A DNA stretch of 64,000 nucleotides from positions 2,108,001-2,172,000 of the forward strand of contig NZ_CCBB010000003.1 in NCBI RefSeq assembly GCF_000613185.1, in the 5' to 3' direction. The number at the start of each line of letters is the position of its first letter. The first letter of the stretch is position 1. Below are positions 10,413-22,268 of this stretch, piece after piece. A model generated the notes under the pieces. The model saw only the letters and a program-made list of their open reading frames with translations, was not told the origin of the DNA and made no database searches. This DNA comes from Mycolicibacterium cosmeticum. GTDB taxonomy: Bacteria; Actinomycetota; Actinomycetes; Mycobacteriales; Mycobacteriaceae. Made by a program: the position numbers and the translations under genes.

Positions 10413-10442
10413 TTGACGGCGTGGCGGCGGCGACCGTAGTGT
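10413..10442 (+). promoter_or_regulatory. Predicted sigma-A promoter of the rhamnose operon
   Basis: TTGACG at 10413-10418, an 18-base spacer, and TAGTGT at 10437-10442. The expected start is near 10449, so the LacI-type operator at 10458 lies in the transcribed leader, where a bound repressor could block elongation or initial transcription. Confidence 0.6.
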
Positions 10443-10457
10443 TGCCGCCATCACAAA

Positions 10458-10471
10458 TTGAAACGTTTCAA
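10458..10471. promoter_or_regulatory. LacI-family operator of the rhamnose operon
   Basis: TTGAAACGTTTCAA is a perfect 14-base palindrome with the central CG typical of LacI-family operators. It lies between the predicted promoter and the mutarotase start. The same 14 bases occur inside a longer palindrome at 22221-22240 in front of lutA. The LacI regulator at 16753 in the same operon is the natural ligand. Confidence 0.8.
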
Positions 10472-10480
10472 AGGTGGATG

Positions 10481-10810
10481 ATGACGGCTGGCCGGACCGA
10501 GCGGGTGTGTTTCCTGCTGCAACTGCGGCGGGACCGGATCGCCGACTACCTCCAGGCCCACCAGACCGTCTGGCCGGAGATGTTGGCGGCACTGCACGAC
10601 GCCGGGTGGCGCAACTACTCGTTGTTCGTCCGGCCCGAGGACGGGCTGGTGGTCGGTTACCTGGAGACCGACGATTTCGCCGCGGCCCAGCAGCGGATGG
10701 CCCGCACCGACGTCAACACGCGCTGGCAGGCCGGCATGGCCGAGTATTTCGAGGCCGGCACCCCCGATGCGGACATCCGTCCGCTGACCGAGTATTTCCA
10801 TCTCGTCTGA
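10481..10810 (+). CDS. rhaM: L-rhamnose mutarotase
   Basis: Interconverts the alpha and beta anomers of L-rhamnose so that the isomerase receives the right form. The 109-residue product matches the family length of about 104. Seen are CFLLQLRRDRIADYLQAH (family catalytic His, H27), HQTVWPEML, and YLETDDFAAAQ. The frame is open upstream, but starts there would include the operator. ATG 10478 and 10481 are adjacent; 10481 gives better spacing from AAAGG at 10470-10474. First gene of the rha operon, 12 bases before the permease. Confidence 0.92.
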   Translation: MTAGRTERVCFLLQLRRDRIADYLQAHQTVWPEMLAALHDAGWRNYSLFVRPEDGLVVGYLETDDFAAAQQRMARTDVNTRWQAGMAEYFEAGTPDADIRPLTEYFHLV

Positions 10811-10822
10811 CACAGGAGTCAC

Positions 10823-12139
10823 ATGAAAATCGGAGCGCGGTCCACCACCGGTTGGCGGGCGACCATCGCGGTCGCGATGTCGAACTACATCGAGGCCGGG
10901 TCGATCATCGCGATCGCCACCAGCCTGGGGTTCTGGCAGGCGGACTTCGGCATCAGCAACTTCGCCGTCGGCCTGCTGGCGGCGTTGAGCGCCAACGCCT
11001 TCGGTGCCGCGATCGGTGCCGTGCTGGGCGGACCGCTGTGCGACCGGTTCGGGCGCAAGGCGATCTACACCTATGACCTGTTGGTGTACATGGCCGGCGT
11101 GCTGCTGGCCGCCTTCGCGGTGAACTTCGCCATGCTGCTGACCGCCTTCGTCATCACCGGCATCGCGGTGGGCGCCGGCGTACCGGCCTCCTGGACGTAC
11201 ATCGCCGAACAGGCGCCCTCGGCCGACCGGGCCAAGCATGTCGGCACCGCCCAGCTGGCGTGGTCGGTGGGCCCACTCATCGGTTTCGCGCTGGCCGCCG
11301 CGCTCGCACCGCTGGGGCTCCTGGGTTCCCGGCTGATCTTCGGCCACTTGTTCGTGGTCGCCGCCGTGGTCTGGTGGGTGCGTCAGGGCCTGGCCGAATC
11401 GCAGATCTGGAAGGACGAGGCCCTCAACGAATCCGCCTCGCTGGCAACAACTGTCGGCAACCGCGGACTGCGCGGCCTGTTCTCCCGCAGGGTCAATATC
11501 ACCGCGCTGCTGTTCCTCGGCGGCATCTATCTGTTCTGGAACACGGTCGCCGGCCAGGCCGGCATCTTCATGCCCCGCGTCTACGACACCGCGGGCCTGC
11601 ACAGCCCGGTGGCGCAGAACCTGCTGCAGGTGCTGGTCTGGGGCGCCACGGTGGCCGCGACCTATTTCGGCTTCATGCGCTACGCCGACCGGATGAGCCA
11701 GCGGCTGCTGTACGTGATCGGCGCGGCGCTGGGCATCGTCGGCTGGATCGTGCTGGTGGCCTTCACCGACGGCGGCGTGCCGACCATGCTGGTGTTCGCC
11801 GTGCTCTGGGGCATCTCCTCGGGCATCGGGGCGCAGGCCTTCTACAGCCTCTGGGCCAGCGAGCTTTTCGCGACCCCATATCGGGCCAGCGCGCAGGGTG
11901 TGATGTTCTTCGTGGTCCGTACCGCCACCGGTCTGCTGAGCTACTTCTTCCCGACTTTGCTGGCCGCCACCGGCCTCACGGCCGTCGGCATCCTGCTGGT
12001 CGCGCTGCTCACGGTCGCCCTGCTGATCGGCGCCGTGTGGGCGCCGACCACGCGGGGGAAGACCCTGCAGCAGATCGAGGTCGAGCGCTACGGCACTCCC
12101 GTCTCGTCGTCCCATCCCATCGAAAGGAGCGCGGTATGA
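10823..12139 (+). CDS. MFS sugar permease, probably for L-rhamnose
   Basis: A 438-residue major-facilitator protein with about 12 membrane segments. After TM2 it has the signature loop GGPLCDRFGRKAIYTYDL, and it ends in a sugar-porter-like tail (WAPTTRGKTLQQIEVERYG). Its place between mutarotase and isomerase makes it the rhamnose uptake system in the cytoplasmic membrane; characterised RhaT and ABC rhamnose systems are of other families, so the substrate is inferred from context. A clear AGGAG lies before ATG 10823. Its TGA overlaps the next ATG by four bases. Confidence 0.88.
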   Translation: MKIGARSTTGWRATIAVAMSNYIEAGSIIAIATSLGFWQADFGISNFAVGLLAALSANAFGAAIGAVLGGPLCDRFGRKAIYTYDLLVYMAGVLLAAFAVNFAMLLTAFVITGIAVGAGVPASWTYIAEQAPSADRAKHVGTAQLAWSVGPLIGFALAAALAPLGLLGSRLIFGHLFVVAAVVWWVRQGLAESQIWKDEALNESASLATTVGNRGLRGLFSRRVNITALLFLGGIYLFWNTVAGQAGIFMPRVYDTAGLHSPVAQNLLQVLVWGATVAATYFGFMRYADRMSQRLLYVIGAALGIVGWIVLVAFTDGGVPTMLVFAVLWGISSGIGAQAFYSLWASELFATPYRASAQGVMFFVVRTATGLLSYFFPTLLAATGLTAVGILLVALLTVALLIGAVWAPTTRGKTLQQIEVERYGTPVSSSHPIERSAV

Positions 12140-13290
12140 AGCTCGCGCCGCTGCTGGACAACCTCGCCATCGAACTGCCGTCATGGGCATTCGGAAACTC
12201 CGGCACCCGGTTCAAGGTGTTCGGAACGCCGGGAACCCCCCGCACCATCGAGGAGAAGATCGCCGACGCCGCCACCGTGCACCGGCTGACCGGCCTGGCG
12301 CCCTCGGTCGCGTTACACATCCCGTGGGACATGGTGGACGATTACGCCGCACTCGGTGCCCACGCCGCCGAACAGGGTGTCCGGCTGGGCACCGTGAACT
12401 CCAACACCTTCCAGGACGACGACTACAAGTTCGGCAGCCTGACCCATACCGACAAAGCGGTGCGGCAGAAGGCCATCGACCATCACCTGGCCTGTATCGA
12501 CATCATGGCGGCGATCGGGTCCCGGGACCTGAAGATCTGGCTGGCCGACGGCACCAATTACCCGGGACAGGGCGATATCCGCGGCAGGCAGGACCGGTTG
12601 GCCGAGTCCCTGGCATCCATCTACCAGCACATCGGCCCGAACCAGCGAATGGTGCTGGAGTACAAGTTCTTCGAGCCGGCCATGTACATGACCGACGTGC
12701 CGGACTGGGGCACGGCCTACGCACAGGTCAGTGCGCTGGGCGAGCGGGCCGTGGTGTGCCTGGACACCGGGCATCACGCCCCGGGCACCAATATCGAGTT
12801 CATCGTCGCCCAGCTGCTGCGCCTGGGGAAGCTGGGATCATTCGACTTCAACTCCCGGTTCTACGCCGACGACGACCTGATCGTCGGTGCGGCCGACCCC
12901 TTCCAGTTGTTCCGGATCATGTTCGAGGTGGTCCGCGGCGGCGGTCTCGACCCGAATGCGGGGGTGGCGCTCATGCTCGACCAATGCCACAACGTGGAAG
13001 CCAAGATCCCGGGGCAGATCCGGTCCGTACTCAACGTGCAGGAGATGACCGCCCGGGCGCTGCTGGTCGACACCGAGGCACTGGCCGACGCACAGGACAA
13101 CGGTGACGTGCTGGGCGCCAACGCAATCATGATGGACGCCTTCTACACCGACGTGCGACCCGCGCTGGCGCAGTGGCGCGCCGACCGCGGCCTGCCGGGG
13201 GATCCGATGGCCGCCTTCGCCGCCTCGGGCTATCAGGACATCATCAACGCCGCCCGCGTCGGCGGTACGCAATCGAGCTGGGGAGCATGA
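12136..13290 (+). CDS. rhaI: L-rhamnose isomerase, RhaI type
   Basis: Converts L-rhamnose to L-rhamnulose in the cytosol. The 384-residue product is a TIM-barrel sugar isomerase of the RhaI group known from rhizobia and Pseudomonas stutzeri, not E. coli RhaA. Probable metal and catalytic segments are VLEYKFFEPAMY, VCLDTGHHAPGTNIE, SFDFNSRFYADDDL and LMLDQCHNVEAKI. The start is ATG 12136, overlapping the permease stop (ATGA), which implies translational coupling. The fusion aldolase gene follows after three bases. Confidence 0.93.
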   Translation: MKLAPLLDNLAIELPSWAFGNSGTRFKVFGTPGTPRTIEEKIADAATVHRLTGLAPSVALHIPWDMVDDYAALGAHAAEQGVRLGTVNSNTFQDDDYKFGSLTHTDKAVRQKAIDHHLACIDIMAAIGSRDLKIWLADGTNYPGQGDIRGRQDRLAESLASIYQHIGPNQRMVLEYKFFEPAMYMTDVPDWGTAYAQVSALGERAVVCLDTGHHAPGTNIEFIVAQLLRLGKLGSFDFNSRFYADDDLIVGAADPFQLFRIMFEVVRGGGLDPNAGVALMLDQCHNVEAKIPGQIRSVLNVQEMTARALLVDTEALADAQDNGDVLGANAIMMDAFYTDVRPALAQWRADRGLPGDPMAAFAASGYQDIINAARVGGTQSSWGA

Positions 13291-13293
13291 CGC

Positions 13294-15327
13294 ATGCCTG
13301 ACACCGTGACCGAACTGATCGCCCGGTCCAACCGGCTGGGATCGGATCCGAAGAACACCAACTACGCCGGCGGGAACACCTCGGCCAAGGGCACCGGCCG
13401 CGATCCCGTGACGGGCGCCCCGGTGGAACTGTTGTGGGTCAAGGGTTCCGGCGGCGATCTGGGCACCCTGACCGAAGACGGCCTGGCGGTGCTGCGGCTG
13501 GACCGGATGCGGGCGCTGGTGGACGTGTATCCCGGCGTGGAGCGGGAGGACGAGATGGTCGCCGCCTTCGACTTCTGCCTGCACGGTCGCGGCGGCGCGG
13601 CGCCGTCGATCGACACCGCCATGCACGGCCTGGTCGAAGCCGACCACGTGGATCATTTGCACCCCGACTCCGGGATCGCCCTGGCGACGGCCGCCGACGG
13701 TGAGGCGCTGACCAAGCAGATCTTCGGCGATCGGGTGGTGTGGGTGCCCTGGCGGCGTCCTGGGTTCCAGCTGGGCCTGGACATCGCCGAGATCAAGAAA
13801 CGCAACCCGCAGGCCATCGGCACCATCCTGGGTGGGCACGGCATCACCGCGTGGGGTGCGACATCGGCGCAGGCGGAGGCGCATTCGCTGGAGATCATCC
13901 AGACCGCCGAACGCTATATCGCCGAGAACGGCCGCCCGGCGCCGTTCGGCCGGGAACTGCCCGGCTTCGGCGCGCTACCCGTTGACGAGCGCCGGGCCAG
14001 GGCAGCTGCGCTGGCGCCGTTCATCCGGGGCCTGGTCTCCACCGACCGGGCGCAGGTGGGCCATTTCACCGATGACCCGCGCGTGCTGGAATTCCTTGCC
14101 GGCGACGAGCATCCGCGCCTGGCCGCGCTGGGTACCAGCTGCCCGGACCACTTCCTGCGCACCAAGGTCAAGCCGATGGTGCTGGACCTGCCGACCGACG
14201 CCTCGCTGGACGAATACCGGGCGCGGTTGGCCGAGCTGCACCAGGCCTACCGCGCGGACTATCAGGCGTACTACGACCGGCACGCGGATCCCGCCTCACC
14301 ACCGATCCGGGGCGCCGACCCGGCCATCGTGTTGATCCCCGGCGTCGGCATGTTCAGTTACGGCAAGGACAAGCAGACCGCGCGGGTGGCCGGCGAGTTC
14401 TATCTCAACGCCATCAACGTGATGCGCGGCGCCGAGGCGATCTCGCACTATGCGCCGATCGACGAGTCGGAGAAGTTCCGCATCGAATACTGGGCGCTGG
14501 AAGAGGCCAAGCTGGCCAGGATGCCCAAGCCCAAACCGCTGGCCAGCCGCATCGCGATGGTCACCGGGGCGGCCTCGGGTATCGGCAAGGCCATCGCCAC
14601 CCGGCTGGCCGCCGAGGGCGCCTGTGTGGTGATCGCCGACCTGGACGCCGGAAAAGCCGCTGCCGCAGCGGAAGAGATCGGTGGTCCGGATGTGGCGATC
14701 GGTATCGCTGCCGATGTCACCGACGAAACCGCCGTGCAGGCCGCCGTCGACGCCTGCGTGCTGGCCTTCGGGGGCATCGACATCGTGGTCAACAATGCCG
14801 GACTGTCACTGTCGAAATCCCTGCTGGACACCACCGTCGCCGATTGGGATCTGCAGCACAACGTGATGGCCCGCGGTTCCTTCCTGGTATCCAAGGCCGC
14901 GGCCCGGGCGCTGATCGACCAGAAACTGGGCGGCGACATCATCTACATCTCGTCGAAGAACTCGGTGTTCGCCGGACCCAACAACATCGCCTACTCGGCC
15001 ACCAAGGCCGACCAGGCGCACCAGGTTCGGCTGCTGGCCGCAGAACTCGGGGAGCACGGCATCAAGGTCAACGGCATCAACCCCGACGGAGTGGTGCGCG
15101 GATCGGGCATCTTCGCCGGCGGCTGGGGCGCCAAACGGGCCGCGGTGTACGGGGTGCCGGAGGAGGAACTCGGCGCCTACTACGCCCAGCGCACCCTGCT
15201 CAAACGCGAGGTACTGCCGGAGAACATCGCCAACGCCGCGTTCGCGCTGTGCACGTCCGACTTCTCGCACACCACCGGGCTGCACGTGCCGGTGGATGCG
15301 GGTGTCGCGGCCGCCTTCCTGCGGTGA
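13294..15327 (+). CDS. rhaEW: Bifunctional rhamnulose-1-phosphate aldolase / lactaldehyde dehydrogenase
   Basis: A 677-residue fusion. The N-terminal class II aldolase/adducin domain (about 1-400; GGNTSAKG, zinc histidines H121 and H123 in DHLHPDSG, GGHGITAWG) cleaves L-rhamnulose 1-phosphate to dihydroxyacetone phosphate and L-lactaldehyde. The C-terminal short-chain dehydrogenase (TGAASGIG 424-431, NNAG, Y567-x3-K571) oxidises the aldehyde to L-lactate with NAD. Fused proteins of this type are known in rhamnose clusters. The product feeds lutABC nearby. The stop overlaps the kinase GTG (GTGA). Confidence 0.93.
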   Translation: MPDTVTELIARSNRLGSDPKNTNYAGGNTSAKGTGRDPVTGAPVELLWVKGSGGDLGTLTEDGLAVLRLDRMRALVDVYPGVEREDEMVAAFDFCLHGRGGAAPSIDTAMHGLVEADHVDHLHPDSGIALATAADGEALTKQIFGDRVVWVPWRRPGFQLGLDIAEIKKRNPQAIGTILGGHGITAWGATSAQAEAHSLEIIQTAERYIAENGRPAPFGRELPGFGALPVDERRARAAALAPFIRGLVSTDRAQVGHFTDDPRVLEFLAGDEHPRLAALGTSCPDHFLRTKVKPMVLDLPTDASLDEYRARLAELHQAYRADYQAYYDRHADPASPPIRGADPAIVLIPGVGMFSYGKDKQTARVAGEFYLNAINVMRGAEAISHYAPIDESEKFRIEYWALEEAKLARMPKPKPLASRIAMVTGAASGIGKAIATRLAAEGACVVIADLDAGKAAAAAEEIGGPDVAIGIAADVTDETAVQAAVDACVLAFGGIDIVVNNAGLSLSKSLLDTTVADWDLQHNVMARGSFLVSKAAARALIDQKLGGDIIYISSKNSVFAGPNNIAYSATKADQAHQVRLLAAELGEHGIKVNGINPDGVVRGSGIFAGGWGAKRAAVYGVPEEELGAYYAQRTLLKREVLPENIANAAFALCTSDFSHTTGLHVPVDAGVAAAFLR

Positions 15328-16745
15328 GCGCCGGCGCTCAAGTCGCCGCCGTCGACCTCGGGGCCACCAGCGGGCGGGTGATCGTCGCGGACCTGGACCG
15401 GTTCCAGATGCGCACCGTGGCCCGGTTCGACAACGACCCGGTGCGCATCTGGAACGGAACACGCCAGGCCCTGCACTGGGACCTGCCCGGCCTGTACGGT
15501 CACGTGCTGAGCGGGCTGACCCGTGCCGCAAGGGAATCCGACCGGCTGGTCGGCATCGGAGTGGACTCCTGGGCGGTGGACTACGGGCTGTTGCGCGACG
15601 GGCGGCTGCTGTCGGTGCCGCATCACTACCGGGATGCCCGCACCGAACGGGGCGTGGAGCTGGTGCACCAGCGGATCGGCGCGGCCGAACTGTACGCCCG
15701 CAACGGGTTGCAGTTCCTGCCGTTCAACACGCTCTACCAACTGGCCACCGAGGACCTACTGGATCAGGCCGACACCGTGCTGCTGATCCCGGACCTGGTG
15801 ACCTACTGGCTGACCGGGCGGCGGGCCGCCGAGCACACGAACGCCTCCACCACCGGACTGCTCGGGCTCGACGGTGCCTGGGATACCGATCTGATGTCGC
15901 GACTCGGATTGTCACCCAAACTGTTTCCCGGCATCGTCGAGCCAGGGACGCCGTGTGGGCGGGTGCTGCCCGGTTTGGGATTCGATGCGCAGGTGGTGGC
16001 GGTGGCCTCCCACGACACCGCATCGGCGGTCGCCGCTATCCCGATGGACGCCGCCACGTCGGCCTACATCTCGTGCGGCACCTGGGGACTGGTCGGCCTG
16101 GAGCTGCCCGGCCCGGTGGTCACCGAGGCGAGCCGGGCAGCCAATTTCACCAACGAGGCCGGCGCCGACGGGCGGAACCGCTTCCTGCACAACGTGATGG
16201 GACTGTGGCTGCTCAGCGAAACGGTGCGCCAGTTCGACCGTGACGGTCGCGGCGCGGACCTCGCCGCGCTGCTGTCGCAAGCCGCCCAGGCCCCGGCGCC
16301 GGCGGGCGTGTTCGACACCGAAGATGCACGGTTCCTGCCGCCGGGCGATATGCCGGCCCGGATCACCAACTGGTACAACGAACGCGGCCTGCCCGCGCCG
16401 GACGGCCCGGCGCAGCTGGTGCGGGCCATCCTGGAGAGCCTGGCCGCCGCGTTCGCATCCGCGGTGCGCACCGCGGCCGAGCTGGCCGGCACACCGGTGC
16501 ACGCCGTGCACATCGTCGGCGGGGGATCGCAGAACGAGCTGCTGTGCCAGCTCACCGCCGACCGGCTGGGCCTGCCCCTGCTGGCCGGGCCGGTCGAGGC
16601 CACCGCGCTGGGCAACATCCTGCTGACCGCGCGGGCCCACGGCCTGGTCACCGGTGACCTGGACGACCTGCGGCGGCGGGTCGCGGACTGGTTTCCGCCG
16701 CGCCGGTACGTCCCACGCGCCGATCGGGCCGCCGTGATGGTGTGA
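15324..16745 (+). CDS. rhaB: Rhamnulokinase
   Basis: ATP-dependent phosphorylation of L-rhamnulose at O-1. The product has 473 residues and belongs to the FGGY kinase family: N-terminal phosphate-binding VDLGATSGRVIVADL (about 10-24), VGIGVDSWAVDYGLL, catalytic-loop HDTASAV at 230-236 (D231 as the likely base), and the C-terminal nucleotide-binding VHIVGGGSQNELLCQLTADRLG. The GTG at 15324 overlaps the aldolase stop by four bases. Lactaldehyde and DHAP formation depends on this step, so its place within the operon is consistent. Confidence 0.94.
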   Translation: MSAGAQVAAVDLGATSGRVIVADLDRFQMRTVARFDNDPVRIWNGTRQALHWDLPGLYGHVLSGLTRAARESDRLVGIGVDSWAVDYGLLRDGRLLSVPHHYRDARTERGVELVHQRIGAAELYARNGLQFLPFNTLYQLATEDLLDQADTVLLIPDLVTYWLTGRRAAEHTNASTTGLLGLDGAWDTDLMSRLGLSPKLFPGIVEPGTPCGRVLPGLGFDAQVVAVASHDTASAVAAIPMDAATSAYISCGTWGLVGLELPGPVVTEASRAANFTNEAGADGRNRFLHNVMGLWLLSETVRQFDRDGRGADLAALLSQAAQAPAPAGVFDTEDARFLPPGDMPARITNWYNERGLPAPDGPAQLVRAILESLAAAFASAVRTAAELAGTPVHAVHIVGGGSQNELLCQLTADRLGLPLLAGPVEATALGNILLTARAHGLVTGDLDDLRRRVADWFPPRRYVPRADRAAVMV

Positions 16746-16752
16746 TGGTCCC

Positions 16753-17757
16753 GTGGTGAGCATGCGGGAAGTCGCTGCCGCGGCCTCGGTGTCCGTCGGC
16801 ACGGTCTCCAATGTCCTCAATGCGCCGGACAAGGTGGCCCCCGCGACGGTGGCCCGGGTGCAGGCGGCCATCGATCACCTCGGTTTCGTCCGCAATGACG
16901 CCGCCCGGCAGCTCAAGGCCGGCCGATCGCGCAGCGTCGGCTTGGTGGTGCTGGACATCGGCAACCCGTTCTTCACCGATATCGCCAGGGCCGCCGAACG
17001 CCGGGCCGGTGAGCACAACCTGACGGTGCTGCTGGGCACCTCCGACGATGACGGTGGACGCGAACGCGCCTATATCGACGCCTTCGACGAGCAACGGGTG
17101 TACGGGCTGCTGGTGTCACCGGTGAGTGACGACCTGGGCCGGTTGACCGCGCTGCGCGATCGTGGCACCCCGGTGGTGCTCGTCGACCGGGACGGCAGCG
17201 GAACACCTTTCGATTCGGTCGCGGTGGACGATGTGGCCGGCGCCCGGCTGGCGGTGACCCACCTGTGTGCGACGGGCCGGCAGCGGATCGCCTTCGTGGG
17301 GGGCCCGGATACGCTGCGCCAGATCCGCGATCGGCGCCGCGGTGCGGCCGAAGCCGCCGCCGAAACGCCCGGCGCCCAACTGGAGAACATCGATGTCGCT
17401 TCGCTGAGCGTGCTGGCCGGCCGCGCGGTCGGCGAACGGTTGCGGGAGCGGCCCCCGGCGCGGCGCCCCGATGCGGTGTTCTGCGCCAACGATCTGTTGG
17501 CCATCGGGGTGCTGCAGGCGCTGACCCTGATGGGTGACCTGCGGGTGCCGGAGGACATCGCGCTCGTCGGGTACGACGACATCGATTTCGCCCGCTCGGC
17601 CGTGGTGCCGTTGACCTCGGTGCGGCAGCCGACCGCCGACATCGGGGCGACCGCCGTGGACCTGCTGATCGCCGCGGCCGAGGACGGTGGCGGCCGGCGC
17701 AAGCCCAGACACGTGGTGTTCCAACCCGAACTGGTGGTCCGGGCCTCGACGGGATAG
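16753..17757 (+). CDS. LacI-family regulator of rhamnose catabolism
   Basis: A 334-residue repressor. The N-terminal helix-turn-helix and hinge are MREVAAAASVSVGTVSNVLN ... VAPATVARVQAAIDHLGFVRNDAARQLK (about 4-57), followed by a periplasmic-binding-like sensor (RSVGLVVLDIGNPFFTDIARAAE to VPLTSVRQPTADIG). It is the last gene of the rha operon, seven bases after rhaB, starting at GTG 16753. The predicted operators are the palindromes at 10458 and 22221. The inducer may be L-rhamnose, rhamnulose or a phosphorylated intermediate; sequence does not say. It converges with the 13E12-family gene, leaving a 7-base gap. Confidence 0.92.
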   Translation: MVSMREVAAAASVSVGTVSNVLNAPDKVAPATVARVQAAIDHLGFVRNDAARQLKAGRSRSVGLVVLDIGNPFFTDIARAAERRAGEHNLTVLLGTSDDDGGRERAYIDAFDEQRVYGLLVSPVSDDLGRLTALRDRGTPVVLVDRDGSGTPFDSVAVDDVAGARLAVTHLCATGRQRIAFVGGPDTLRQIRDRRRGAAEAAAETPGAQLENIDVASLSVLAGRAVGERLRERPPARRPDAVFCANDLLAIGVLQALTLMGDLRVPEDIALVGYDDIDFARSAVVPLTSVRQPTADIGATAVDLLIAAAEDGGGRRKPRHVVFQPELVVRASTG

Positions 17758-17764
17758 CGCGCCG

Positions 17765-19225
17765 TCAATACGGCGGGGGTTCGGCGTTCTCGTCGATGGT
17801 GTGTTGGTTGAGTCGTCGTTCGGCGTGGATGCGGGCGGCGCGCGTCTCGGCGCGGGTGCGGCGGCGTTGCGGCATGGCCAGGCCCCGGTCGGTGGTTTCG
17901 CTGACCGGTGCGGGTGGTGCCGGGGTGTCAAGGGGTCGGTCGGGGAACAGGATTCGGCTCAGCGGCACGGTGGTGTAGGCGTGGCCGGTGGGGCTGGTCC
18001 AGGTGTGTGATCCGTCGGGGTGCTGATGTTTGGTCCAGCCGCCGAAGGTCTTGAGGAGGTGGTGGGTGCGGCACGTGGCCGACAGATTGCCGGGGTGGGT
18101 GGACCCGGCCGGCCAGGGCACGCTGTGGTCGAGGTCGCAATGCTGGGCGGAGCGGTTGCAGCCGGGGAAGACGCAGACGAGATCCCGGATGCGTACCCAG
18201 GTGGCGATCTTCGTGGTTGGGCGATAGCCGGGCACGGCGGGCAGATCGGCGGGGTCGGCCAGGGGCGTGATGCGGGCGCCGGTGGCCACGAGTTCGGTGA
18301 GCAATGGGCCGGGCAGCACGCCGCCACCGATGAGCACACCGGGGGAGGCGACGGTCGCCACGGGGTCCGGGCGGCGCGACCCGTCACCGTGCAGGTCGGG
18401 GTCGCGAGGTGGAGCCGATGGCGGTGCCGAGTCGGTGAGTACGTACACCGTGACCGCGGTTGAACGCGGATCCTTCTGTGCCGCCGGGCAATCCGGGTTC
18501 CCGCACAGGCAGGCGAGCCGTTCGGCATCTGGGTCGGCGCCGAGCACCCCGAGGGCGTCGGCCATCCGCTGGGGTGTGGTGCGCGGGTCGTCGTCACACA
18601 CGGTGGCGGCGATCGCGGTGAGGCGGGCCCGCAGGGCGGCGGCATCGGTGGCGAACAACCGCCCGTAGACACCGACCGTGCCGGCGAGATCGTCGGCACC
18701 GCCGAATTCGAGGTACCGCGAGCGTGCGGCGCAGCGGGTGCCGTGCACGGCGGATGGATCGAACTTCTCGATCCACACATCGATGGCGTCCTCCAGTCCC
18801 TTCTGGGACAACGTCCCGAGGTGCGCCGCGATGCCTGCCAGCGCGGCATCGATGAGCGCCAGGGGTTCGTCGTGGATCACGAGCCGGGTGCGCCAGGTGA
18901 TGGCGGCGGCGATCTTGGCCGAGATCTCGCCGGCGGCGAGCAGGGCCCCGACCTTGGGTAGCCGGTCCCGCAGCGCGACGGCGATGCGCATCTGACCGGA
19001 GGCGGCCTGCTTGGACATCCCGCAGGCGGCCGATACCTCGGCGGTGGCGTACTCCCAGCCGTCGATCGCGGCATGGGCGATCACGTCGTCCTCGTCATCG
19101 CAGTGGTGCGCCACGATCGTGGCGATGACCGCCAATCGGTCTGCCGCCGCCACCGCTTCGGCCCGGGTGGCTGCGCGCAGCGCGTCGATCAGCGCTGCGG
19201 CATCCGCCTCGGCCGGTTCGAACAT
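17765..19225 (-). CDS. 13E12-repeat family HNH endonuclease-like protein (DUF222-HNH)
   Basis: A 486-residue protein. The N-terminal DUF222 region (about 1-330; HHCDDEDDVIAHAAIDGWEYATAEVSAACGMSKQAASGQM) is followed by a C-terminal HNH motif (CVFPGCNRSAQHCDLDHSVPW ... GNLSATCRTHHLLKT). This is the mycobacterial 13E12 family, present in several copies per genome; its function is not established, though damage induction of some members is reported. The LexA-type box at 19218-19233 overlaps the ATG, and TAGTAT six bases upstream predicts a leaderless transcript. It stands between the rha and lut operons with no link to sugar metabolism. Confidence 0.93.
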   Translation of the reverse strand: MFEPAEADAAALIDALRAATRAEAVAAADRLAVIATIVAHHCDDEDDVIAHAAIDGWEYATAEVSAACGMSKQAASGQMRIAVALRDRLPKVGALLAAGEISAKIAAAITWRTRLVIHDEPLALIDAALAGIAAHLGTLSQKGLEDAIDVWIEKFDPSAVHGTRCAARSRYLEFGGADDLAGTVGVYGRLFATDAAALRARLTAIAATVCDDDPRTTPQRMADALGVLGADPDAERLACLCGNPDCPAAQKDPRSTAVTVYVLTDSAPPSAPPRDPDLHGDGSRRPDPVATVASPGVLIGGGVLPGPLLTELVATGARITPLADPADLPAVPGYRPTTKIATWVRIRDLVCVFPGCNRSAQHCDLDHSVPWPAGSTHPGNLSATCRTHHLLKTFGGWTKHQHPDGSHTWTSPTGHAYTTVPLSRILFPDRPLDTPAPPAPVSETTDRGLAMPQRRRTRAETRAARIHAERRLNQHTIDENAEPPPY

Positions 19226-19233
19226 GTGTTCAT
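19218..19233 (-). promoter_or_regulatory. LexA (SOS) box over the start codon of the 13E12 gene
   Basis: Read on the minus strand it is ATGAAC-ACAT-GTTCGA against the mycobacterial consensus TCGAAC-N4-GTTCGA, a match at 10 of 12 fixed positions. It covers the ATG (19225-19223) and touches the predicted -10 (TAGTAT, 19237-19232). SOS boxes overlapping the start of 13E12 genes are described for M. tuberculosis. Confidence 0.72.
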
Positions 19234-19348
19234 ACTACGTGGACCCACCGACAGGTGTCACCGATTGCGCACCGCCGCAATATCATTGGAGAGTTGTCGC
19301 TGAAAAGTCGCTCGGAGGCGGGCATTCGCACTCACCCGCACTCCGGAC

Positions 19349-19954
19349 TCACGGCACGATCAGCACGTCCAGCGTCCGTGGGCCGTGCACCCCTTCGACC
19401 CGCTCCAACTCGATATCACTGGTGGCGCTGGGCCCGGAGATGAAGGTCAGCGGCCGGGTCGGGTCCAGTGCGGCGAAGCCCTGCGGCACGGTGTCGACGA
19501 TCTGCCCGGCGCGCACCACGCAGATGTGGTGATCGGGCACCAGGGTCAGCGCCCGGCGGCCCTGGGCGGATCCGGCGTCCAGCACGATGGTCCCGGTCGC
19601 AGCGATGCCGACGGCGCAGCCGGTGAGCACGGCATCGGCCCGGTCCAGCGCCGAAACGTCCAGCGGGGGAGCGTCGGCGACGGTGTGCACGCCGGTCACC
19701 CACTCGGCCGGGATATCGGCGGGCACCAGCACGGTCGCATCGGGCGTGACCAGCCCGCGCACCGTCGCCGCGATATCGGTGACGCGGTGCACCCTGGCGC
19801 GGTACTCGGCGACGGCCTCGGCGAAGCGCTCGACGTCGGGCGGGCCGGTGAGCGGATCTCGCGCGTATTCCCGCGGTACCACAACGGTTTCCGGAGGTGC
19901 ACCCGCCAGCGCCGCCCGGATCCGGCCGAGCACCGCCGCCCGTGCGTCCGTCAT
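19349..19954 (-). CDS. lutC: Lactate utilisation protein C (LUD domain)
   Basis: A 201-residue LUD (DUF162) protein, third component of the LutABC complex that oxidises L-lactate to pyruvate in organisms without, or in addition to, the flavin lactate dehydrogenase. Seen are TDIAATVRGLVTPDATVLVPADIPAEW, VGIAATGTIVLDAGSAQGRRALTLVPDHHICVV and FISGPSATSDIELERVEGVHGPR, all typical of LutC. The ATG at 19954 overlaps the lutB stop (ATGA). It is the last gene of the operon, and the 123-base gap to the 13E12 start shows no clear terminator. Confidence 0.94.
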   Translation of the reverse strand: MTDARAAVLGRIRAALAGAPPETVVVPREYARDPLTGPPDVERFAEAVAEYRARVHRVTDIAATVRGLVTPDATVLVPADIPAEWVTGVHTVADAPPLDVSALDRADAVLTGCAVGIAATGTIVLDAGSAQGRRALTLVPDHHICVVRAGQIVDTVPQGFAALDPTRPLTFISGPSATSDIELERVEGVHGPRTLDVLIVP

Positions 19955-21423
19955 GAGTCGCTCCCGTGGGTACGCTCCCACCACTGCCGGAAGGTCTCCT
20001 TCGGCGGTTCGGGGATATCGCGACTGGCGGTCCATTTCGACGCCGGCCAGGGCAGGGCGGCGATGCGGTGATCCTTGCCGGCGAGCAGCCGGCCCGCGCC
20101 GAGGGCCTTCTCGGCCAGCGCGAAGCGGCCGGGTGCCGACATCGCCCAACCCGCGGCCTTCATCGCCAGGTCCTGCCCGCCCGGCAGCCCGCCCCTTACC
20201 CCCCTTTCCGAATCCACCTGCTGGGCCCGCAGATGCACCAGGATCGAGGGGATGTCGATGCGCACCGGGCAGGCGTCGAAACACGCCCCGCACAACGACG
20301 ACGCATAGGGCAGGCTGGCGTTGGGGTCGTCGTGCCCCGTGGTGCCGGTCAGTTGCGGGGACAGGATCGCCCCGATCGGCCCGGGATACACCGACCCGTA
20401 CGCGTGGCCACCGGTGCGTTCGTACACCGGGCACACGTTGAGGCAGGCGCTGCACCGGATGCAGTGCAGCGCAGCGCGTCCCACCTCGTCGGCCAGCACC
20501 CGGGTGCGGCCGTTGTCCAGCAGCACCAGGTGGAAGCTCTGCGGGCCGTCGCCGGGATGGACCCCGGTCCACATCGAGGTGTACGGGTTCATCCGCTCCG
20601 CGGTCGAAGACCGGGGGAGCAGTTGCATGAACACTTCCAGATCCGTGAACGTCGGGATGATCTTCTCGATGCCCATCACGGTGATCAGCGTCTGCGGAAG
20701 GGTCAGACACATCCGGCCGTTGCCCTCCGACTCGACCACGGCGAGTGTACCGGTCTCGGCCACACCGAAATTCGCGCCGCTGACGGCGACCTTCGCGGTG
20801 AGGAACTTGCGCCGCAGATGGGCCCGGGCGGCCATCGCCAGCACCCGTGGATCGTCGGTCAGCTCACCGGCCCCGGGCATCTCGCGGGTGAAGATCTCGC
20901 GGATCTCGGCGCGGTTGCGGTGGATCGCCGGCACCAGGATGTGGCTGGGTTTGTCATGGCCGAGTTGCACGATCAGTTCGGCCAGATCGGTCTCGAACGC
21001 CGCGATGCCCTCGGCTTCCAGGTGCTCGTTGAGCCCGATCTCCTGGGTGGCCATCGACTTGACCTTCACCACCTCGCCGGTGCCGGTTTCGCGGATCAGC
21101 GCGGTGATGATGCGGTTGGCCTCGGCGCCGTCGCGCGCCCAGTGCACCACCCCGCCGCGGGCGGTGACGTTGTGCTCCAATTGCTCGAGCAGCTCGGGCA
21201 GCCGGGCCATGACATCCTGCTTGACGGCGCTTCCGGTGGCGCGCAGCTCTTCCCAGTCATCGCATTCACTTACGGCGGCAAGGCGTTTGGCGCGGATGGT
21301 GTGGGTGGCGTGACCGATGTTGCGGCGCAACTGGGCATTGTCGAGCGCGGTGCGCGCGGCCCGGGGGAACGGCACGTCGCCGCGTAGATTCCCGACGACG
21401 CCGGGGGTGCCCAGGAACGTCAC
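19951..21423 (-). CDS. lutB: Lactate utilisation iron-sulfur protein B
   Basis: A 490-residue protein with an N-terminal LUD domain (about 60-290; WARDGAEANRIITALI, GANFGVAETGTLAVVESEGN) and a C-terminal ferredoxin-like part with two 4Fe-4S cysteine groups (CIRCSACLNVCPVYE and CGACFDACPVRIDIP). It carries electrons in L-lactate oxidation with LutA and LutC at the membrane-facing respiratory chain. GTG at 21423 is preferred because it overlaps the lutA stop (GTGA) and begins just before conserved sequence; the frame stays open for 73 more codons upstream but that stretch is arginine-rich and non-coding in appearance. Confidence 0.94.
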   Translation of the reverse strand: MTFLGTPGVVGNLRGDVPFPRAARTALDNAQLRRNIGHATHTIRAKRLAAVSECDDWEELRATGSAVKQDVMARLPELLEQLEHNVTARGGVVHWARDGAEANRIITALIRETGTGEVVKVKSMATQEIGLNEHLEAEGIAAFETDLAELIVQLGHDKPSHILVPAIHRNRAEIREIFTREMPGAGELTDDPRVLAMAARAHLRRKFLTAKVAVSGANFGVAETGTLAVVESEGNGRMCLTLPQTLITVMGIEKIIPTFTDLEVFMQLLPRSSTAERMNPYTSMWTGVHPGDGPQSFHLVLLDNGRTRVLADEVGRAALHCIRCSACLNVCPVYERTGGHAYGSVYPGPIGAILSPQLTGTTGHDDPNASLPYASSLCGACFDACPVRIDIPSILVHLRAQQVDSERGVRGGLPGGQDLAMKAAGWAMSAPGRFALAEKALGAGRLLAGKDHRIAALPWPASKWTASRDIPEPPKETFRQWWERTHGSDS

Positions 21424-22163
21424 GAGCCCGCGCCTTGGCCGGCCAAGATCTCCGCCAGGTGCACGGTGCGCACGCCGACGCGCAGCCGGCTCAGCCCGCC
21501 CCCGATGTGCATGAGACACGACGAGTCCCCGGCGCTGCACACCTCGGCGCCGGTGCCGAGGATGTTGGTCATCTTGTCGGCGAGCATCGCGGTCGAGGTG
21601 TCGGCGTTCTTCAGGGCGAAGGTGCCGCCGAAACCGCAGCACGAGTCGGCGGCCGGCAACTCCACCAGCGTCAACCCGCGGACGTTGCGCAGCAGCCGCA
21701 GCGGCTTGTCGCCGACGCGCAGCATGCGCAACGAGTGGCAGGTCGGGTGGTAGGTGACCCGGTGCGGGTAGTAGGCCCCGACATCGTCGACGCCGAGCAC
21801 GTCGACGAGGAGTTCCGAGAGTTCGAAGGTGCGGGCGGCGACGGCTTCGGCGCGGGCGGCCAGCCGTTCGTCACCGGCGCGCCGGGCCACCATGGCGTGC
21901 TGGTGACGCACCGAACCCACACACGATCCGGACGGGGCCACGACGGCGTCACAACCCGCCGCCTCGAACACGTCCACGTGATGGCGCACCACCGCGGTGG
22001 CCTCGTCGAGATAGCCGGTGTTGATATGCATTTGCCCGCAACAGGTTTGACCGGTGGGGAACACCACCTCGTGGCCTAGTCTTTCCAGCAGGGCGACGGT
22101 GGCGATGGCGGCGGGCGGAAAAAGCGCATCCGCCAGACAGGTCGCGAACAGGGCGATTCGCAT
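21420..22163 (-). CDS. lutA: Lactate utilisation iron-sulfur protein A (CCG domains)
   Basis: A 247-residue protein with two cysteine-rich CCG domains, QTCCGQMHINTG (about 39-50) and DSCCGFGGTFALKN, as in heterodisulfide reductase and glycolate oxidase iron-sulfur subunits. It is the first gene of lutABC, which turns L-lactate into pyruvate. ATG 22163 lies about 70 bases downstream of the predicted start of the promoter at 22240-22268. The operator shared with the rhamnose operon suggests that the lactate handled here comes mainly from rhamnose breakdown. Confidence 0.94.
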   Translation of the reverse strand: MRIALFATCLADALFPPAAIATVALLERLGHEVVFPTGQTCCGQMHINTGYLDEATAVVRHHVDVFEAAGCDAVVAPSGSCVGSVRHQHAMVARRAGDERLAARAEAVAARTFELSELLVDVLGVDDVGAYYPHRVTYHPTCHSLRMLRVGDKPLRLLRNVRGLTLVELPAADSCCGFGGTFALKNADTSTAMLADKMTNILGTGAEVCSAGDSSCLMHIGGGLSRLRVGVRTVHLAEILAGQGAGS

Positions 22164-22220
22164 AGCGTCCTCAGATTAGCGCCGGTGTCGGCCGCGACGG
22201 CGGCGAACGAGCGGACGGAA

Positions 22221-22240
22221 TGATTGAAACGTTTCAATCA
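22221..22240. promoter_or_regulatory. LacI-family operator of the lut operon
   Basis: TGATTGAAACGTTTCAATCA is a perfect 20-base palindrome containing the 14-base rhamnose-operon operator. One end touches the predicted lut -10 (22245-22240) and the rest covers the expected transcription start, an ideal place for repression. Confidence 0.82.
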
Positions 22241-22268
22241 CGTTAGTGTGACGCCGGTCATAAGTCAA
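22240..22268 (-). promoter_or_regulatory. Predicted sigma-A promoter of lutABC
   Basis: On the minus strand: TTGACT (22268-22263), a 17-base spacer, and TAACGT (22245-22240). Spacing is optimal. The downstream half of the -10 element abuts the operator. Confidence 0.65.

Follow-up and report, generated by a model that had tools for sequence, protein, structure and literature searches.

A shared palindrome predicts joint control of rhamnose catabolism and lactate oxidation by a LacI-family regulator in Mycolicibacterium cosmeticum

Introduction

In certain Actinomycetales and Rhodobacterales equipped with RhaEW, the genes lldD and lldEFG belong to the reconstructed RhaR regulons, and the rhamnose pathway has probably been extended to pyruvate in those lineages (Rodionova et al. 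2013, PMC3870299). Passages of the same work mention rha loci of Mycobacterium and Nocardia, where RhaY is colocalized with the rha genes. The passages on rha and lactate genes of other bacteria in PMC5720513 and PMC6955870 describe these genes with no joint regulation. Here, we analyze a 64,000-nucleotide (nt) stretch of the M. cosmeticum genome (the window), in which a rha operon and a convergent lutABC operon carry the same palindrome. The core idea of a RhaR regulon reaching lactate oxidation is not new, having been in print since 2013 as far as the relevant passages of PMC3870299 go, and the window is a further member of the predicted kind.

Our comparative analysis suggests, with a probability of about 0.85, that the LacI-family protein of the rha operon (RhaR) represses both this operon and the convergent lutABC genes, and that rhamnose co-induces lactate oxidation. 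RhaR, specified by the last gene of the rha operon, would bind TTGAAACGTTTCAA at two places, shortly past the promoter of its own operon and at that of lutABC, keeping rha and lut repressed in the absence of rhamnose. Rhamnose or an early catabolic intermediate would release the repressor, upon which RhaM, RhaY, RhaI, RhaB, and RhaEW would convert L-rhamnose to dihydroxyacetone phosphate and L-lactate, and co-induced LutABC would oxidize the L-lactate to pyruvate. The chemistry of these Rha and Lut enzymes is that of their families. In this lineage, RhaR control would stand in place of the LldR-like regulator of the same lut genes in sister lineages.

Results

TTGAAACGTTTCAA occurs exactly at positions 10458-10471 and 22224-22237 of the window, the latter copy embedded in the perfect 20-bp palindrome TGATTGAAACGTTTCAATCA (22221-22240) with its 14-bp core starting 74 nt upstream of the lutA ATG. 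Both sites thus stand where the preliminary description had placed them. A chance origin of the motif was rejected on the basis of shuffled windows (a mean of 0.03 sites at two or fewer mismatches), of the base composition of the window (about 0.0007 exact copies expected per genome), of the whole-genome count, and of the genus survey reported below. The search of the entire 6.46-Mb genome returned only two sites at one or no mismatch and none for the reversed control; at up to three mismatches the figures were 46 and 27, respectively. Promoter-like pairs of hexamers accompany both sites. The one before the rha operon was read by eye, and the one before lutA was read by eye and is also conserved, since TTGAC and CGTCACACTA precede the operator in all seven genomes that carry it at lutA. 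Because the operators abut or lie just downstream of these elements, and given the habit of LacI-family proteins, RhaR probably acts as a repressor at both.

The motif was then searched at one or no mismatch in 396 genomes of the genus, with RhaEW called at E values of 1e-200 or lower. It was found in 84 genomes, which include all 55 with RhaEW vs 29 of the 341 without it. The reversed control pattern matched 33 genomes, 3 with RhaEW and 30 without, so the 29 matches in RhaEW-less genomes represent background. At this stringency the site precedes the rha genes in 52 of the 55 loci, and in the remaining three (G112, G274, and G365) the contig begins inside the operon; hence, all 52 testable loci carry it. 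The same motif is present at two Nocardia, one Gordonia, and one Williamsia rha locus. In every one of the 53 loci (of 55) whose contig extends far enough, a LacI gene forms part of the rha operon or adjoins it directly. Its recognition helix, VSVGTVSNVLN, is identical or almost identical among the relatives compared, consistent with binding of the conserved site by RhaR. Extra regulon members were also sought by motif alone in 20 stretches fetched around exact or one-mismatch sites. Two of these were rha sites, and one, in genome G168, was the site of a transporter gene described below. Eight other sites are taken as background; the eight nearby proteins that were scanned included an enoyl-CoA hydratase-like, a PhoD-like, and a ketosteroid dehydrogenase-like protein, the others having no match at the thresholds used. 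The M. cosmeticum genome (G000) further holds, outside the window, the perfectly symmetric two-mismatch site TTGAAGCGCTTCAA (G000:C3:2200400-2200413, locus L091), perhaps an operator of another LacI-type regulator or a chance occurrence.

LutB, called at E values of 1e-150 or lower, is encoded in 110 of the 396 genomes, 23 with RhaEW and 87 without, and rha and lut stand side by side in 19 of the 23 genomes holding both (in G041 the linkage rests on a 55-bp identical contig end). We examined the 350 bp preceding lutA in 110 loci, i.e., 111 from the 110 genomes (two in G279) minus that of G333, truncated at the end of its contig. The operator appears in 7 of the 19 rha-linked clusters, six times exactly and once with one mismatch, and in none of the 91 other lut loci (0/4 in genomes with unlinked rha and lut; 0/87 in lut-only loci). 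In each of the 12 linked clusters without the operator, lutA is preceded by a pair of TGTGGTCNGACCACA-like boxes (core TGGTCNGACCA, at most 1 mismatch), and the match to a divergent GntR gene begins no more than 90 bp away. Not one of the 19 clusters has both types of control, nor does any have neither. The GntR protein of G077 combines GntR and FCD domains and, among solved structures, matches 2di3 best (E 6e-48), the LldR protein of Corynebacterium glutamicum; the boxes agree with the FadR-subfamily consensus TKGT-N3-ACMA (both given in passages of PMC4494728). The NCBIfam matches of the G077 protein comprise several GntR regulators, LldR among them, all below their cutoffs. A search of 26 chosen genomes at an E value of 1e-25 recovered the orthologue (at least 67% identity) from 12/12 box-bearing and 0/7 operator-bearing genomes, G087 having only a 39% paralogue. 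M. cosmeticum itself yielded no LldR-like orthologue at that threshold and no TGGTCNGACCA box at two or fewer mismatches in the 350 bp before lutA. The preliminary description had attributed joint control of rha and lut to the LacI protein of the rha operon and proposed tracing the motif through mycobacteria with both clusters. Its presence in all 55 RhaEW genomes and at 7 of the 19 linked lutA genes, with lut sites only beside rha, argues for this control on comparative grounds.

At four lut loci, namely L080, L084, L213, and L225 (in G119, G128, G339, and G272), a single LldR-like box, TGTGGTCAGATCACG, sits at -27 of lutA with no GntR match at the locus, and in G119 none was found in the whole genome (E 1e-25). 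These lone boxes are either decayed or used by another regulator.

A second pattern concerns the lactate-oxidizing genes. A flavin mononucleotide (FMN)-dehydrogenase gene, here called lldD-like, follows rhaB in 32 of the 55 rha loci of the genus; for the M. frederiksbergense protein, the one tested, the best NCBIfam matches are to L-lactate dehydrogenase models, below their cutoffs. Linked lutABC accounts for another 19 loci, no locus has both, and four have neither (L347, L079, L356, and L360 in G056, G084, G168, and G207). Exactly one candidate L-lactate-oxidizing module is thus present in 51 of the 55 loci, and the exclusion is pronounced (Fisher P of 3e-11, relatedness ignored). Because the two modules exclude each other in rha loci, lactate made by RhaEW is the probable substrate of LutABC. 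The metabolic link between the two operons, as previously suggested, is supported by this exclusivity, and lactate would flow from one to the other.

RhaR may also reach beyond the cluster. A major facilitator superfamily (MFS) gene of the SfMCT L-lactate transporter family lies outside the window (G000:C3:1462410-1463789, locus L090/L313), preceded at 133 bp by CTGAAACGTTTCAG, a two-mismatch but perfectly symmetric site. Its product scores 321.8 against a cutoff of 320 for the model NF049980 (L-lactate MFS transporter), with oxalate/formate antiporters below cutoff; among solved structures, it matches the L-lactate transporter 6g9x best (E 3e-26) and an oxalate:formate antiporter next (E 4e-22). 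The comparison with other genomes was unplanned and prompted by this site, one of three with two mismatches in M. cosmeticum. Homologues were found in 10 of 30 chosen genomes, and in nine of them (at least 86% identity) an operator-like palindrome lies 112-171 bp before the matched start, with one mismatch in seven cases and two in G000 and G377. When each upstream region was base-shuffled 300 times, no shuffle equaled its site. The tenth homologue, in G041 (67% identity), has no site, and the case in G168 was found through its site and hence is not independent. RhaEW is encoded in all ten homologue-bearing genomes and in 15 of those searched that lack the homologue. The five RhaEW-less genomes searched had no homologue, a number too small to establish a link. 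Of the seven genomes with the operator at lutA, only G000 and G377 have the transporter.

Four close relatives bear on the history of the lut operator. In G286 and G373, rha is absent and the neighbors are kept, with an AraC-type and an HD gene on one side and DNA matching a thioesterase-like gene on the other (the gene beyond lutA specifies a thioesterase domain); both lack the stretch on which, in the window, the lut promoter-like element and the operator reside. The lut genes of G063 and G313 likewise have no operator, and RhaEW is absent from these two genomes. In trees of LutA plus LutB, all four fall among or beside the seven operator-bearing genomes. A clade made of these seven lut loci only was rejected (approximately unbiased test, p-AU 5.5e-05); that of the seven plus the four lut-only relatives was not (p-AU 0.293), which leaves room for a single operator gain with later loss beside rha loss. 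Two gains would also be compatible with the data. At locus L085 of G063, tandem CTCGAAACGTC-like repeats occur about 120-134 bp before lutA, where clade mates carry the RhaR operator, possibly a decayed or expanded site.

Profile matches uphold the rha and lut gene content of the preliminary description (Table 1). The rha operon (10478-17757, plus strand) runs in the order rhaM, rhaY-like transporter, rhaI, rhaEW, rhaB, and lacI, facing lutA, lutB, and lutC (22163-19349, minus strand). The latter form one operon of genes overlapping by 4 nt with their neighbors and have the domains of a LutABC system: CCG in LutA, LUD with 4Fe-4S and LutB_C in LutB, and LUD in LutC. Selenocysteine in LutB was considered on account of one TGA flagged in six linked genomes (G095, G306, G192, G153, G253, and G244) and dropped, as the 482-485 aligned LutB residues have no internal stop; the TGA is taken as the ordinary gene end. 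Between lacI and lutC lies a DUF222 gene (17765-19225), which we take to be 13E12-like. It is present in G377 and in rha-less G286, had no match in the examined stretches of G254 and G373, and is perhaps a mobile or easily lost insert.

Table 1. Coordinates of predicted genes and sites in the window
Feature	Position	Strand	Evidence
Promoter-like pair before rha operon, TTGACG-N18-TAGTGT	10413..10442	+	Read by eye
Predicted RhaR operator of rha operon, TTGAAACGTTTCAA	10458..10471		Motif match, genus conservation
rhaM, L-rhamnose mutarotase	10478..10810 (start 10478 or 10481)	+	TIGR02625 E 8e-15, below curated cutoff
rhaY-like MFS sugar transporter	10823..12139	+	Pfam MFS_1 and Sugar_tr
rhaI, L-rhamnose isomerase	12136..13290	+	TIGR02635 644.5 bits, above cutoff
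rhaEW, rhamnulose-1-phosphate aldolase/lactaldehyde dehydrogenase fusion	13294..15327	+	TIGR02632 1024.4 bits, above cutoff
rhaB, rhamnulokinase	15324..16745	+	TIGR02627 E 5e-120, below curated cutoff
LacI-family regulator, proposed RhaR	16753..17757	+	Pfam LacI and Peripla_BP_3
lutC	19349..19954	-	Pfam LUD_dom E 3e-23
lutB	19951..21423	-	TIGR00273 459.4 bits, above cutoff; LUD_dom, Fer4_8, LutB_C
lutA	21420..22163	-	CCG domain, two stretches, Pfam E 1e-34
Predicted RhaR operator of lut operon, perfect 20-bp palindrome	22221..22240		Motif match, lut loci of relatives
Promoter-like pair before lutA, TTGACT-N17-TAACGT, abutting operator	22240..22268	-	Read by eye

Discussion

Several observations weigh against joint control by RhaR. 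The absence of the operator from lutA in 12 of the 19 linked clusters indicates that the pathway can do without co-regulation. The test of rha presence vs lut operator on independent pairs gave three concordant, no discordant, and six uninformative pairs (P of 0.25) and is underpowered. Three near full-length FMN_dh-family proteins are encoded in the M. cosmeticum genome and may include other lactate dehydrogenases. Of the promoters claimed in the preliminary description, the elements can be read by eye, yet a strict sigma-70 scan finds none at the rha or the lut site. Finally, the genome has 12 LacI-type helix-turn-helix matches, and a paralogue could bind the sites.

The alternative that survives best, although we consider it unlikely, accepts co-regulation and assigns LutABC mainly to external L-lactate or some other substrate, RhaR tying its expression to plant-sugar conditions. 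This would agree with the LldR-like regulator adjoining lut in sister lineages and with the 87 of 110 lut genomes that lack RhaEW. However, the exclusivity of the lldD-like and lutABC modules points to RhaEW-made lactate as the substrate, and with the LldR-like gene not found in the seven operator-bearing genomes, no obvious response to external lactate would be left. It is decidedly less probable that the rha-linked LacI is not the factor, and that another LacI-family protein, e.g., a global carbon regulator, binds both palindromes. The paralogues just mentioned and the common similarity of palindromic operators within the family (family knowledge; passages of PMC3870299) speak for such a protein; however, a global regulator should have many sites, and only two exist at one or no mismatch. 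Moreover, the motif stays at background in RhaEW-less genomes (29 vs 30 for the reversed control), and the LacI gene accompanies rha wherever the contig allows. It is very improbable that the lut operator is a functionless relic of a recombination event placing the rha promoter region beside lut: the seven operators do fall into two related groups with only three informative independent pairs, yet the core is exact in six genomes and has one mismatch in the seventh, the surrounding DNA differs between the two groups, the spacing from lutA ranges between 71 and 98 nt, and neither the 87 lut-only loci nor the 12 linked clusters containing an LldR-like gene carry the operator.

Joint repression of rha and lut by RhaR can be extended to a broader reading that we favor with some reserve. 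The mycobacterial rha cluster would hold a replaceable lactate module, either lldD-like after rhaB or convergent lutABC, and in one lineage RhaR would have captured the lut module through operator gain at lutA and loss of the LldR-like gene, making lactate oxidation answer to the sugar. With the unlinked transporter gene also within reach of RhaR, a distributed rhamnose-lactate regulon would result, spanning catabolism and both the transport and the oxidation of lactate. On this reading, the lactate half of rhamnose would have a predictable fate in these mycobacteria, and a transporter encoded outside the cluster would take part. The open-access literature searched, with the supplements of PMC3870299 and RegPrecise lying outside it, yielded no mention of the LldR-to-RhaR exchange, the lldD/lut exclusivity, or the transporter.

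Among known systems, the LldR-controlled lactate operons (C. glutamicum LldR, 2di3) resemble the 12 sister clusters, which combine lutABC with a divergent GntR/FCD regulator; the M. cosmeticum genome differs in that searches found no such regulator (E 1e-25) and no box for it at lutA (two or fewer mismatches). The linked clusters offer a natural case of regulator exchange: in the sampled genomes, the same module in the same place is accompanied by the presumed sensor of its substrate 12 times and by the operator of the upstream pathway seven times. Since no linked cluster has both or neither control, the sequence in which linkage, operator gain, disappearance of the old regulator, and joint loss with rha took place is testable.

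A close counterpart is the Actinomycetales RhaR regulon as portrayed in passages of PMC3870299, which, like the window, has a LacI regulator, RhaEW, a RhaY-type MFS transporter, and a palindromic operator. The window accordingly displays a LacI gene in the rha locus, the RhaEW fusion, a conserved palindromic operator, and lactate dehydrogenase genes with the operator at lutA. Unlike in that regulon, its lut genes form a separate convergent operon with an operator of their own, where sister clusters have the LldR-like regulator. Elsewhere in the actinobacteria, 17 of the best 80 named rhaEW loci have lutAB or lutABC in the flanking DNA examined (up to 10 kb), several of them directly behind rhaB, and the LacI proteins of the compared lut-bearing Streptomyces, Arthrobacter, and Zafaria loci are 50-59% identical. 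The runs rhaI-rhaEW-rhaB-lutABC (Streptomyces, Arthrobacter, Zafaria, and Microlunatus) and rhaB-lacI-lutABC (Phycicoccus) join the same two modules as the window. In these runs lut follows rha on the same strand, whereas in M. cosmeticum lut faces rha and has its own predicted RhaR operator.

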